64,000 bases of DNA from an uncultured Selenomonadales bacterium (GTDB taxonomy: Bacteria > Bacillota > Negativicutes > Selenomonadales > Selenomonadaceae), in NCBI GenBank assembly GCA_947307055.1, contig CAMZHX010000007.1, forward strand, positions 62,001-126,000. Direction: 5' to 3'. The notes under the pieces were generated by a model that worked only from the letters and a program-made list of their open reading frames with translations, had not been told where the DNA came from and searched no databases. Below are positions 18,658 through 24,862 of the stretch, one piece after another (the first letter of the stretch is position 1; each line of letters opens with the position of its first letter). Position numbers and translations under genes: made by a program.

Positions 18658-18687
18658 ATTGTATCACATTGAAATTTTTGCTACAAT
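18658..18687. promoter_or_regulatory. Overlapping face-to-face promoters for miaB (-) and the 18709 gene (+)
   Basis: ATTGTA (18658-18663) and TACAAT (18682-18687) are exact inverted copies. Rightward: TTGTAT, 17 bases, TACAAT. Leftward: TTGTAG, 17 bases, TACAAT. Each -10 therefore overlaps the other promoter's -35. The rightward -10 is extended (TGCTACAAT). Confidence 0.55.
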
Positions 18688-18708
18688 CGCGGGCAAGGAG
18701 GTCTTTCA

Positions 18709-19914
18709 ATGGAAAATGATGAAATTCTTCTAATCAAGTTACGCGATTGTTTCACGGGCGGCTACACGCTCCCGCAGTATTGCATCGACAACGATATAAA
18801 AAAGCCGCTGTTTGTATCCGAAGAAAAATTTTTAACGTTCACGTGGGAAATCCATGTTCAATTTCGCTACGACAAAAGAATTTTCGCTGAGTTCAGTTTT
18901 CTCGACCTGCCGTCGGGTAAAACGTCTTTTGCTCTAGGGAACACCACTTCGGCTATGAGCTATCAAAATTTCTCTGAGATAAATCTCGCTGATTTTGATG
19001 CGATTATTCTTCTTACCGAAAAAAATGTTGAAGTTGAGGTAAATACAATTTCCTTAGAAAATCTTTGCAATTATTTTTTTTATAAAACTTATGCCGAAAT
19101 CCCTACCCTCAACTTTTTGCAACGCTATCCGCAAGTGAAATTTTTTCTGACGTACTATCCTATCTTCAATGAAGAATACAATAATAAATCATTTAATAAA
19201 CAACTTATGCATTATCCTGCTTTTAGAAGAGCTATTCGTGCAAGTAAACACACTCCAATCGAAACTACCCTTGATAAATTCGGTTATACAAATCGTCAGT
19301 TGCGTGCTTTAATAAAAGGCGGAAAAGCTGTAAAAAATTTCGACGGTTCAAGTTCAATGATAGATAACAATGACCCATTGGTAAGAATAAAAGACGGCAA
19401 GCGCGAAACCGCCGACCAGCCTGAACATTTCCGAAATAAAATTTATATTTGTGGCACTTGTCACGATTACGGTGTTAATGCCCCTTTCGACAAAACGATT
19501 GCCAGCTATCTGCAAAAAATGTTAAACGAAGCTAATTTGCCCTATCGCGTCGAAAATGAAAGTCAACGTTATGGTAGCAGATATCAAGATATTTTTTATA
19601 ATCTCAATAATATAGAGCCTTTGCCCGGCGACATTATTTTTTTGTATATCCACAGTATTCACTCGAATAATCAAAAAAGGCTACCATTTTTAGATTTGCT
19701 TAATGCTTTTTCTCCGCCGCTAGACTTCAGGGAATTTTTTTGCGCAAGGAATCATTTAAACGAGCTGGGCTATAAAACTTTGGCGGAAGGATATTTTAAA
19801 TTTCTAACGGAGAATAATTTCTTCCGCGACAAAGAATTTAATTATCCTACACCCCCCCCCCACTGCATCGCTACGGAATCCCTCCACAGTTCGAGGCAGG
19901 CGGCAGCAATGTAA
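18709..19914 (+). CDS. 5' part of a phase-variable gene: SGNH-hydrolase-like protein, out of frame with its CitC-like half
   Basis: As written this frame encodes 401 residues, but the last 17 or so (HCIATESLHSSRQAAAM) come after a run of ten C at 19852-19861 and look like out-of-frame sequence. Residues about 245-375 suggest an SGNH-type hydrolase: a beta-strand leading into YICGTCHDYG, and RNHLNELGYKTLAEGYFKFL, like the block with the catalytic histidine. The first 230 residues are unrecognised. With eleven (or eight) C the frame continues through LHRYGIPPQFEAGG into the CitC-like protein at 19992-20657, giving a single protein of about 649 residues. AAGGAGG precedes the ATG. Base use is more AT-rich than in neighbours. 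Function unknown; modification of a surface glycan is a guess. Confidence 0.75.
   Translation: MENDEILLIKLRDCFTGGYTLPQYCIDNDIKKPLFVSEEKFLTFTWEIHVQFRYDKRIFAEFSFLDLPSGKTSFALGNTTSAMSYQNFSEINLADFDAIILLTEKNVEVEVNTISLENLCNYFFYKTYAEIPTLNFLQRYPQVKFFLTYYPIFNEEYNNKSFNKQLMHYPAFRRAIRASKHTPIETTLDKFGYTNRQLRALIKGGKAVKNFDGSSSMIDNNDPLVRIKDGKRETADQPEHFRNKIYICGTCHDYGVNAPFDKTIASYLQKMLNEANLPYRVENESQRYGSRYQDIFYNLNNIEPLPGDIIFLYIHSIHSNNQKRLPFLDLLNAFSPPLDFREFFCARNHLNELGYKTLAEGYFKFLTENNFFRDKEFNYPTPPPHCIATESLHSSRQAAAM
19852..19861 (+). repeat. Run of ten C, putative phase-variation tract
   Basis: Ten consecutive C lie inside a coding sequence. The frame entering them stops at 19914; the frame one base away is open to 20657. 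The count decides whether the fusion protein is made. Slippage in such tracts is a well-known switch in other bacteria. Confidence 0.85.
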
Positions 19915-19991
19915 AAATTTCTTATGGCGAAGAGTTAGAAGCTTACAAGGAAAGTCTTAGGGCGAAAAAAATTCCAATAGGTGCAATCGTC

Positions 19992-20657
19992 ATGAATTGC
20001 AATCCCTTCACGCTCGGTCATCAATATCTTGTCGAGTACGCCGCGGCTAAAGTTACTAGGCTTTATATCTTCGTCGTCGAGGAGGACAGGAGCGAATTTC
20101 CCTTTGCAGACAGGATTGAACTTGTTCGGCAGGGCGTCAAACATATTCCCAACGTTGAAGTCTTGCCGAGCGGGAAGTTTATCATATCGCAGACGACTTT
20201 TAGCGGCTACTTCAATAAAGCCGAGCTTCAAGACGTGCAAGTTGATTCGAGCGAGGACGTTGAGATTTTCGCTAAAGAAATCGCGCCGACTTTGGGAATT
20301 ACAGTTCGTTTTGCTGGCGAGGAACCTAAAGACAACGTCACGCGCCAATACAACGAAACTATGAAAAAAATTCTGCCGCGCTACGGTGTCGAGTTCTGCG
20401 AAATCCCGCGCAAAAAAGTTTCTCCGGAATCATTTATTACAAACTTAGTCCGCGAGGCTATCCAATCAGGCGACCTCGGCAAAATTAAAAAGCTTGTCGA
20501 GTTTTGCGAAAGTCCAGACAAAGAAATTTCGGTCGAACCAATCAGCGCGAGTTCAGTCCGCGAGGCTCTCAAGCGCGGCGACTTCGATAAAATTCAAAAG
20601 CTCGTCCCAGAATCAACTCTAAATTATCTGCGCGAAAGATATTCTACAAACAAATAA
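19992..20657 (+). CDS. 3' part of the phase-variable gene: CitC-like nucleotidyltransferase domain
   Basis: The frame is open from 19863 and this part begins at the first ATG within it. The sequence IPIGAIVMNCNPFTLGHQYLVEYAA is the nucleotidyltransferase signature (T/HxGH type) seen in the C-terminal domain of citrate lyase ligase (CitC). FAGEEP and ISASSVREAL match the later ISxTxxR-type motif. No citrate lyase genes are nearby, so a CitC role is unlikely. I see no ribosome binding site before 19992, which supports synthesis only as part of the longer fusion. The chemistry is probably adenylyl or cytidylyl transfer to a small acid or glycan precursor. A terminator follows at 20664-20689. Confidence 0.75.
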   Translation: MNCNPFTLGHQYLVEYAAAKVTRLYIFVVEEDRSEFPFADRIELVRQGVKHIPNVEVLPSGKFIISQTTFSGYFNKAELQDVQVDSSEDVEIFAKEIAPTLGITVRFAGEEPKDNVTRQYNETMKKILPRYGVEFCEIPRKKVSPESFITNLVREAIQSGDLGKIKKLVEFCESPDKEISVEPISASSVREALKRGDFDKIQKLVPESTLNYLRERYSTNK

Positions 20658-20663
20658 ATTTCC

Positions 20664-20689
20664 AGCGGAGTCTGCGGGCTCCGTTTTTT
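20664..20689 (+). terminator. Rho-independent terminator after the CitC-like gene
   Basis: CGGAG (20666-20670) and CTCCG (20679-20683) flank an eight-base loop and are followed by six T. Confidence 0.75.
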
Positions 20690-22651: not shown

Positions 22652-23787
22652 ATGAACGTTGCAATCTTAGGAACAGACCAAATATCTCAAACAGTCGCGA
22701 ACATAATCGAGAACGGCTACAATCCCTGGCTGAAAAGCAAACTTGCCGAACCGCTCAATGTCGTGGCATATACGCCGTGGGGGGGGGGGTTGGCTTTGCT
22801 GTTATTGATGACAAGGCGATTTTGAACTACGAACAATTTATCGCGCTCTATCACAAGAAGGTTATCGACAAAATTATTTTTCCGCGCGAAGTTTATCGCA
22901 GACAAAGAAAAATTTTGAACTACCTGCGCGGGCAGGGCATAAGCATAAGGGACGTTTTGATAGCAAATCGCTTAAACAATGAAATTTCCTTGCCGAATTT
23001 TATAGAGCCTTATATCTCGACGAAATATCTTCCGTATCTTGAATTTCATATCGCCGACCATTGCAATTTGAACTGCAAAGCTTGCGAGCATTATTCCGGC
23101 TTGGTTAGGGAGCCGCACTTTCCGAACTTGGAAAGATTCACGCGAGATTTTGAACGCCTTCACGAATTTATTGACGACTTGGGCATGATAAGGATTTTGG
23201 GTGGCGAACCGCTTTTGAATCCCGAAATTAACGAGTACATAAAACTTAGCCGCCGACTTTATCCGCAAGCAATTATTCATGTCGTGACGAATGGGCTACT
23301 CCTTCCGAAAATGTCTGAAGAATTTTTCGAGACTATGCGCCAGTGCAATGCAGGAATATGGATTTCATTTTATCCGCCGCTTGAAAGTAAAATGCCCGCA
23401 ATCAAACGCTTGCTGGAAGAAAAAGGCGTTCAATTTAAAATTACCCGCTTGAATAAAACTTTCACGGTCAAGCAAACTTTGAAACGTCACGACTTCCCAA
23501 AGGAAATTTTCCTGCAATGCTTTCAAGCTAATTGCCATAACTTGTACGAAGGGAAAATTGCATCATGTTTTCTGCCGTTCACGACGAAATATTTCAACGC
23601 CTATTACGGGAAAAATTTGCCAGAAGACGGCGCGCTTAACCTCTACGACCCGACCTTGACGACCGAAAAACTCAAGGCGCATTTACTTACACCTTTCGAG
23701 CGTTGCCGATATTGCACGCCGCCAGTTGAGGTTGAGTGGTCGACAATTAAAAATCCCAGCCCCATAACCGATTGGGTTCACGATTGA
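22652..23787 (+). CDS. Radical SAM protein, phase-variable, OFF in this sequence
   Basis: The ATG at 22652 follows the TPM stop directly and has GGAGGAGG upstream. The frame runs 43 codons (MNVAILGTDQISQ...VVAYTPW) into a run of eleven G at 22779-22789 and then ends at 22825. The main domain is open in another frame to 23787. Twelve (or nine) G would join them into one protein of about 378 residues. The main part carries the radical SAM motif CNLNCKAC, then RILGGEPLLNPEI and HVVTNGLLL, as in SPASM/MoaA-type enzymes. Three later cysteine groups (C in FLQCFQANC, then RCRYC) may bind a further cluster. A GTG inside the G run could start a shorter form but lacks a proper ribosome binding site. 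Substrate unknown. Confidence 0.75.
22779..22789 (+). repeat. Run of eleven G, putative phase-variation tract
   Basis: Eleven consecutive G lie 128 bases into the radical SAM gene. Upstream and downstream frames are offset by one base. This is the second such tract within 3 kb. Confidence 0.85.
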
Positions 23788-23800
23788 AAAAGGAGACTAT

Positions 23801-24862
23801 ATGGCAAGTAAAAATAAAAACCTAAACACCGCCGCACGCGCAAAAAAAGATGAGTTCTACACCCGAATTGTCGACATCGAAAACGAATTGCGCTACTATC
23901 AAAAATTTTTCGCGGGCAAAACCGTCCTGTGCAACTGCGACGACCCCTACGAAAGCGACTTCTTTAAATACTTCACGATTTATTTCAATCAGCTCGGTCT
24001 CAAAAAGTTAATCGCCACTTGCTACGTCGGCTCGCCCATTGTACAGACCGAATTGGACTTTTTCGGCACGCCTAACGAAAATCCCAACTTCGACAAGAAA
24101 AAATCCGCTATCAGGTTCGATGTTACCGAAGTGCGCGACTTCAACGGCGACGGCGCAATAAATTTGGCGGACGTAAGGTGGCTACTCGAAAATAATCGCA
24201 ACGTCGTGACCTATCTCGAAGGCGACGGAGATTTTCGCTCGCCCGAATGTATCGCCGCGCTAAAGGAAGCTGATATTGTCGTCACGAACCCGCCTTTTAG
24301 TTTGTTTCGCGAATACGTCGCCCAACTTATTCAATACGATAAAAAATTCCTCATCATTGGCAACATTAACTGTATAACTTATAAAGAAATTTTCCCGCTC
24401 ATTATGCAAAACAAAATTTGGCTCGGCTACAGAATGGGGCGCGGGATTTCTGGATTTTTTGTTCCTGATAATTACGAACTTTACGGCACAGAAACTCGCG
24501 TTGACAATAATGGTAGACGCATTGTTGCAACTAATCAATGTCTTTGGCTAACTAACTTGGATATTCGCAAGCGACACGAAGACATTTTGCTGTACATGAA
24601 GTATACGCCGGAAAAATATCCGCGCTACGACAACTACGACGCAATAGAAGTTTCAAAGACAGCCGAGATACCCGAAGATTATTTTGGGGTCATGGGCGTC
24701 CCGATTACTTTCCTTGACAAGTACAATCCCGATCAGTTTGAAATTATCGGTTGCACTTATCTTTATGGCGACCCCGGCTGCCACGTCGAAGGAACTTCTT
24801 GGGGCGCGAAGATTAACGGCAAAGATATTTATAAGCGGCTATTTATTCGGCGGCGTCGATAG
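23801..24862 (+). CDS. EcoRI-family adenine-specific DNA methyltransferase (orphan)
   Basis: The 353-residue protein matches the EcoRI methylase family, which methylates adenine using S-adenosylmethionine. The catalytic motif is NPPF (ADIVVTNPPFSLFREYV) near residue 165. The opening AARAKKDEFYTRIVDIENELRYY is typical of the family. At about residues 108-120 there is an EF-hand-like loop, DFNGDGAINLAD. No restriction endonuclease gene is adjacent, so the enzyme may act in regulation or be a remnant of a restriction system. It lies 13 bases after the radical SAM gene with AAAGGAG upstream, so they share an operon. M.EcoRI itself recognises GAATTC; the site here cannot be inferred. Confidence 0.88.
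   Translation: MASKNKNLNTAARAKKDEFYTRIVDIENELRYYQKFFAGKTVLCNCDDPYESDFFKYFTIYFNQLGLKKLIATCYVGSPIVQTELDFFGTPNENPNFDKKKSAIRFDVTEVRDFNGDGAINLADVRWLLENNRNVVTYLEGDGDFRSPECIAALKEADIVVTNPPFSLFREYVAQLIQYDKKFLIIGNINCITYKEIFPLIMQNKIWLGYRMGRGISGFFVPDNYELYGTETRVDNNGRRIVATNQCLWLTNLDIRKRHEDILLYMKYTPEKYPRYDNYDAIEVSKTAEIPEDYFGVMGVPITFLDKYNPDQFEIIGCTYLYGDPGCHVEGTSWGAKINGKDIYKRLFIRRRR

Follow-up and report, generated by a model that had tools for sequence, protein, structure and literature searches.

A homopolymeric C tract between the SGNH-like and CitC-like halves of a probable contingency gene in the rumen genus Quinella

A run of ten C residues in the window, the whole 64,000-nucleotide stretch of uncultured Selenomonadales DNA analysed here, separates an SGNH-like half from a CitC-like half that lies in another reading register, as the first-pass annotation of this DNA had described. 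The present assembly encodes a truncated form that ends just past the SGNH-like domain. The same annotation took the tract to be likely phase variable, and a comparison of 48 homologous junctions strongly supports that proposal: the place of the tract is conserved, its length varies among relatives, and the split copies are under selection. We conclude that the SGNH-CitC gene is very probably a contingency (phase-variable) gene. The features of the locus, and of a second tract gene nearby, are as follows.

18682-18701, + strand: extended -10-like motif TG-C-TACAAT, with its last base at 18687, followed by the gene's ribosome site AAGGAGG at 18695-18701; both identified by eye
18709-19851, + strand: N-terminal half P0001, 381 aa, an N-terminal domain of unknown fold followed by the SGNH-like domain; aligned with 23 homologues
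19357-19839, + strand: SGNH-like domain, aa 217-377, borders approximate; from alignments and weak GDSL matches in homologues
19459-19461 and 19753-19755, + strand: Cys251 of the block-I-like GxCHxxG and His349 of the block-V-like HxNELGY; from alignments
19852-19861, + strand: C10 tract in a Pro-rich inter-domain linker, the proposed switch element; C7-C14 at the same position in 19 of 48 junctions
19862-19914, + strand: out-of-register tail and stop of the current frame
19863-20657, + strand: P0002, the C-terminal half, read in the second register, with linker HRYGIPPQFE and then a CitC-type nucleotidyltransferase domain
19977-20498, + strand: match to PF08218 (Citrate_ly_lig), from the profile search
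20001-20021 and 20541-20561, + strand: NPFTLGH, and ISASSVR directly past the PF08218 match; invariant alignment columns
20412-20519, + strand: 36-residue insertion in the CitC domain, from the alignment
20664-20685, + strand: terminator-like stem-loop 3′ of the second half, from the scan
22652-23787, + strand: second tract-split gene, with an N-terminal piece from ATG 22652, a G11 tract at 22779-22789, and a radical SAM open reading frame at 22777-23787 in another register

Both of the frames reported earlier are present. The open reading frame that begins at ATG 18709 is 401 aa long, passes through the C10 tract and stops at 19914, and the other register is open and stop-free from 19863 to 20657 (264 aa). 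The 3′ half was said to lack a ribosome binding site, and it appears to have no convincing start of its own: the earliest ATG, GTG or TTG in the P0002 frame is ATG 19992, which falls within the conserved VMNCNPFT stretch and is preceded by a weak AGGTG at best, as judged by eye. The terminator scan of the + strand lists no site between the two halves, and it provides weak evidence for the stem-loop beyond the second, as four terminator-like sites were found where 3.1 are expected in shuffled sequence. The promoter scan does not list the extended -10-like site, and its -35 match is weak.

The CitC-type assignment of the second half is confirmed by profile search, in which P0002 matches PF08218 with an E-value of 1.5e-65 (220.8 bits, against a gathering score of 20.9) and is the only long match to this family in the window genome. 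Scanned alone, it scores 200.2 bits with TIGR00124, below the equivalog cut-off of 262.1. There are weaker matches to PF01467 (0.0055) and TIGR00125 (2e-6, just above its cut-off), and a PDB sequence search with this half returns only phosphopantetheine adenylyltransferases and one UPF0348 protein. The 36-residue insertion is present in the window copy only, among 21 aligned; the end of the PF08218 profile matches twice in this copy, and the insertion looks as if the segment after it had been partly duplicated and had then diverged. In L113, L117 and L119 (the same as L087, L091 and L092) the CitC half is followed by some 130 additional C-terminal residues, and the second halves of L114 and L118 are also long.

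The SGNH label given to the first half is plausible, but the support from profiles is weak. P0001 has no Pfam or NCBIfam match in the profile search, including no GDSL model over its gathering score, and a PDB sequence search with this half gives no match. Among 24 homologues, PF00657 is matched by two (best 4e-4) and PF13472 by two (best 0.061), with L114 reaching 22.4 against the PF13472 gathering score of 32.9. GxCHxxG and HxNELGY are nonetheless reminiscent of SGNH blocks I and V, with the block residues taken as set out in the relevant part of PMC9558356. In two alignments the block V His is invariant (24 of 24 and 25 of 25 rows) within an HxNExG context, and the block I residue is Cys rather than the Ser nucleophile in 23 of 24 and 24 of 25 rows; Ser is found only in L095 and L128, which are the same gene on one contig. 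No membrane segment is seen in either window half, the largest 19-residue hydropathy being 0.94, and the AT3 Pfam domain has no match in the window protein or in the homologues scanned.

The C10 tract exceeds what chance would provide. G/C runs of lengths 1 to 6 number 19622, 3935, 866, 116, 12 and 1 in the window, beyond which there is only one run of 10 and one of 11; two extrapolations give an expectation of 0.0003-0.0005 runs of at least 10 per window. The 2.46 Mb genome to which the window belongs (88% complete, 56 contigs) has 10 G/C runs of at least 9 against 0.09-0.15 expected. Sixty-six genomes of the window's genus were searched, and the genus is shared with G177, the carrier of the Quinella sp. 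1Q7 locus L120 (100% identity); NCBI places Quinella in Negativicutes, Veillonellaceae. Among the 28 genomes of the genus that were sampled, the median is 20.5 runs of at least 9 per genome (range 4-88), compared with a median of 3 in 123 genomes of other genera; yet 4 of these 123 have 20 or more, and high tract abundance is thus not unique to the genus. One genome of the genus, G040, has 88 such runs, four times the genus median.

P0001 has matches in 30 of 151 sampled genomes of the family, 18 of which are from the 28 of its own genus (its own genome included), and a scan of named genomes gives 47 loci, mostly in rumen Selenomonadales MAGs and in Clostridia from rabbit (records named Ruminiclostridium or Acetatifactor). 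A viral or prophage origin was considered and rejected, one scan of viral contigs having yielded no relative. Two halves were paired when no more than 120 bases apart, a rule that allows no free test for separate CitC-half genes, and this gives 48 junctions, 47 in 42 loci plus that of the window; 43 are Selenomonadales-labelled (window included) and five are from the rabbit Clostridia. L086 is excluded as a duplicate of L111. L129, L140 and L141 are unpaired because their contigs stop short of the C half, and L148 and L149 because they are fragments; in L123 a cut copy and in L138 a second gene are left unpaired because their C-half matches begin past query residue 20. All tract lengths are as assembled, with one assembly per species. 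Single uninterrupted homologues, for which the first-pass annotation had suggested a search, do exist: there are 27 natural full-length frames, 25 of them aligned, and the natural joined relatives are mostly 605-637 residues long.

Several properties of the junctions bear on the switch. First, C7-C14 is found at the same place in the linker in 19 of the 43 Selenomonadales-labelled junctions. Second, the two halves are in register at 7 of the 19 junctions with a tract of at least seven C, against 23 of the 24 without one (recounted numbers; Fisher's exact p=3e-5), the single exception among the latter being L113, which is split with C5 at the linker. Raw script flags give 6 of 19 and 22 of 24 as joined; L118 is recounted as in register because its junction keeps the frame and the split flag arose only from an earlier stop, and L135 because it is in register through the linker, its break lying later. 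Third, 7 of 19 fits one third (p=0.81, recounted numbers), which is the expectation for a free-running switch. Fourth, junctions with similar flanks differ in both length and state. A single contig at L111 carries a C14 joined and a C10 split paralogue (flanks 83% and 83% identical), L117 with C8 is split where L119 with C9 is joined (80% and 84%), and L104 with C9 is joined where L110 with C10 is split (83% and 77%); the flanks compared are 90 bases on each side, and the pairs, 77-84% identical, are homologues or paralogues rather than same-species alleles. Tract length, to judge from these comparisons, decides the register at the linker. The L086/L111 contig (G138 contig 35) holds four tandem SGNH-CitC paralogues in all, the C14 and C10 copies and two tract-free ones, one of the latter with a break within the N half.

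The second half of split copies shows the marks of purifying selection. In the 12 copies split at a C tract it is open to an end of the usual length in nine and to the contig end in three, and the median dN/dS is 0.12 for split-split pairs (31 pairs), 0.12 for split-joined pairs (135) and 0.14 for joined-joined pairs (116). These are Nei-Gojobori values from pairs with dS of 0.05-1.5, all others having been dropped, and the split label here also takes in L113, L135, L138 and L146, with L118 counted as joined. For the window copy against L112, dS is 0.99, dN 0.087 and dN/dS 0.088. Because the second half stays open and the median dN/dS is 0.12, the split copies are not simply dead. Some members of the family evidently do decay, with six copies broken away from the junction (the third copy of L111, L118, L135, L143, L148 and L149).

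The tracts are also restricted in where they lie. In the 86,644 bases of the 48 genes there are 28 G/C runs of at least 7, 19 of them at the junction, five in the linker of the rabbit relatives and four in the last codons, with none elsewhere in these genes; the stretch that opens with the N half and reaches roughly residue 215 of the C half (82,834 bases in total) accounts for 24 (19 + 5), and the remaining 3,810 bases of 3′ ends for the other four. All five rabbit relatives have G7-G11 in the same linker, about 15 codons farther on, with copies of G9, G10 and G9 joined and copies of G7 and G11 split. Among the more distant SGNH-CitC proteins of the family's other genera, 4 of 12 loci (L070-L081) have G8-G11 in the N-terminal portion, L070 being split and L071, L072 and L074 joined. 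Because both positions and letters differ, the tract has probably arisen more than once in the SGNH-CitC family, and such repeated origin would be the strongest sign of selection for the tract. The last-codon tracts form a second, 3′-end position, at L130:7826, L131:7826 and L132:7865 (C9 each) and L134:5291 (C24), in four loci that are without a linker tract.

It is very unlikely that the gene is a fixed pseudogene of the window species, in which one slippage in the C tract was followed by decay. The window copy is indeed split, and in one assembly only, and the six relatives with other breaks indicate that such an outcome occurs; however, 264 stop-free codons, a dN/dS of 0.088 against L112 at a dS of 0.99, a split-split median of 0.12 and an in-register share of 7 of 19, as a free switch would give, all run counter to it. 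Still harder to credit is a homopolymer assembly or sequencing error in a plain intact fusion gene, an outcome that the first-pass annotation had raised as systematic read error. Homopolymer lengths are error-prone and this is a draft assembly, but both states occur in the records of several projects with lengths of 7 to 14, the C14 joined and C10 split paralogues of L111 share one contig, and 10 long G/C runs where 0.09-0.15 are expected would demand an explanation regardless. Programmed ribosomal or transcriptional slippage, constantly yielding both the short and the joined protein from unchanged DNA, would likewise need a long homopolymer within the gene and selection on both frames, and transcriptional slippage is mentioned for Buchnera tracts in the pertinent section of PMC2831843. 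This seems improbable nonetheless, since the register is unconserved (7 of 19), so that no single decoding rule has been kept, and since such decoding is unneeded at 23 of the 24 tract-free junctions.

There is a somewhat better, but still minor, chance that the switch is real and alternates between two functional proteins, one having the CitC domain and one lacking it, rather than between on and off. The tract lies past the whole SGNH-like half, which is complete in both states, and C-terminal phase variation, in one case merging two coding regions, is described for Helicobacter canadensis in the sections of PMC2823697 on such genes. Against this, 23 of the 24 paired tract-free junctions are joined, and the five unpaired loci are explained by contig ends (L129, L140, L141) or are fragments (L148, L149).

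Our preferred reading remains that of a contingency gene switched at the linker. The C tract would gain or lose C by slipped-strand mispairing at replication, and each change would toggle between the full SGNH-CitC protein and a truncated protein ending past the SGNH-like domain; that length changes within a population, and that slippage is the cause, we infer from the differences among relatives. The CitC-like domain could use ATP to activate acetate or a similar carboxylate; the SGNH-like domain would then receive the acyl group and, still in the cytoplasm, transfer it to the precursor of a surface glycan. Lacking the activating domain, the protein would leave the modification off, though the truncated form could have activity of its own. 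This function, an acylation of surface glycan that depends on ATP, is one that we suggest from the domain names and the neighbours; it is a tentative assignment with a little under an even chance of being right. A doubtful but appreciable alternative is that the CitC-like half makes a CDP- or ADP-linked head group for glycan decoration, without acylation: the weaker cytidylyltransferase matches (PF01467, 0.0055; TIGR00125, 2e-6) favor it, but Citrate_ly_lig is by far the best match at 1.5e-65, and citrate lyase ligase is an enzyme that uses ATP to acetylate a thiol. The most elaborate version of the acylation proposal, which is unlikely to hold in full, is a cytoplasmic glycan acyltransferase in which a CitC-like acyl-adenylate loads the SGNH Cys, much as CitC loads the thiol on citrate lyase, and in which the linker tract (poly-C in Quinella, poly-G in rabbit Clostridia, of separate origins) uncouples activation from transfer and, together with other tract genes, yields a mixture of coated and smooth Quinella cells.

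The Quinella neighborhood is uninformative where looked at, most other flanking open reading frames being represented by their lengths only. The window gene is followed downstream by zinc-ribbon and TPM genes, with no recognised glycan cluster; a CTP_transf_like gene, which we take to be CoaD, and a hypothetical gene lie upstream in L106, and SPFH genes lie upstream in L130 and L142. The reading frame L106:7885-9219, which has no family, looks by eye like a wrong-strand ORF and was set aside. Most of the clostridial neighbor proteins scanned also belong to no informative family, with no Pfam family for P0005, P0006, L136:545-2257, L144:4245-5981 and L137:4435-5400, and those of L144 include one FrhB/ferredoxin protein and one HAD hydrolase. 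The rabbit locus L136 has among its neighbors an FkbH domain protein (TIGR01686, 4.8e-49, above cut-off); P0001 shows homology to part of the C-terminal region of this protein (38% over 93 aa, 1e-12), which has Ser at the motif. This FkbH-SGNH protein (L136:2284-5529, 1075 aa) is encoded upstream of the SGNH-CitC gene, and its gene contains a C9 tract about 40 residues past the FkbH domain. This gene and the FrhB-type gene of L144, each beside one clostridial relative, are indirect hints at function.

Other genes of the window genome contain tracts as well. The second tract-split gene, of radical SAM type, is 3 kb from the SGNH-CitC gene, and its homologues L156 (G9) and L159 (G10) each form one uninterrupted frame with the tract at the same place. 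An EcoRI-type adenine methyltransferase gene (PF13651, 1.1e-141; window 23801-24862) lies beside both tract genes. Elsewhere in the genome the tract genes comprise glycosyltransferases, two of GT8 and one of GT92, as well as one of DUF1919 and one RTX-repeat frame downstream of a tract, while L014 and L017 have no family. The RTX-repeat frame (L018; PF00353) has G10 ahead of it, which might affect its expression, and at L020 no long reading frame spans the G10 tract.

By these observations hypermutable switching probably operates in Quinella, a rumen genus without cultured members that, according to the portion of PMC9585023 on the subject, is increased in some low-methane sheep. The same genome paper, where it treats electron microscopy, describes two surface types, coated and smooth cells, within a single enrichment sample; neither 'phase var' nor 'homopolymer' occurs in its main text. 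Tract genes spread through the genome would provide a testable explanation of such mixed surfaces. The presence of a C tract and a G tract at one linker in two lineages suggests selection for detaching the domain that activates from the one that transfers, which would refine simple on/off phase variation. In the open-licence literature searched we found no description of an SGNH and CitC protein pair, no conserved inter-domain tract with measured selection or repeated tract use in this family, and no report of phase variation in Quinella. The type of switch itself is known.

Translational phase variation through homopolymeric tracts is familiar from the contingency loci of Helicobacter, Campylobacter and Neisseria. 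The likeness is close, with a long G/C tract in a coding region, a frame set by its length, and many such genes per genome; the differences are that the present case is from another phylum and an uncultured rumen genus, and that the tract lies between domains rather than at the 5′ end. The second half shares with CitC (TIGR00124, PF08218) the nucleotidyltransferase domain with NPFTxGH and ISASxVR, but falls below the TIGR00124 cut-off and is fused to an SGNH-like half. According to the survey results in PMC2831843, which cover 99 prokaryote genomes, poly-G and poly-C tracts are as a rule underrepresented, though exceptions occur. In Helicobacter canadensis, the sections of Snyder et al. 2010 (PMC2823697) on late tracts describe alteration or removal of the C-terminal part, and HCAN_0660 and HCAN_0661 would merge; these cases are from one strain, mostly affect hypothetical proteins or a small number of residues, and come with read-level evidence of length variation, whereas in Quinella a whole catalytic-type domain is at stake, at a conserved position in many genomes and with selection measured, from assemblies only. 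The AT3-SGNH acyltransferases OafB and OatA, as presented in the parts of PMC9558356 used here, have an acyl-supplying domain fused to SGNH and act on surface glycans, and oafB-linked acetylation is reported there as phase variable (epigenetic). The SGNH-CitC protein would also pair an acyl-supplying domain with SGNH, but it has no membrane domain, carries Cys for Ser, would rely on ATP-dependent activation in the cytoplasm, and would be switched by a DNA tract.
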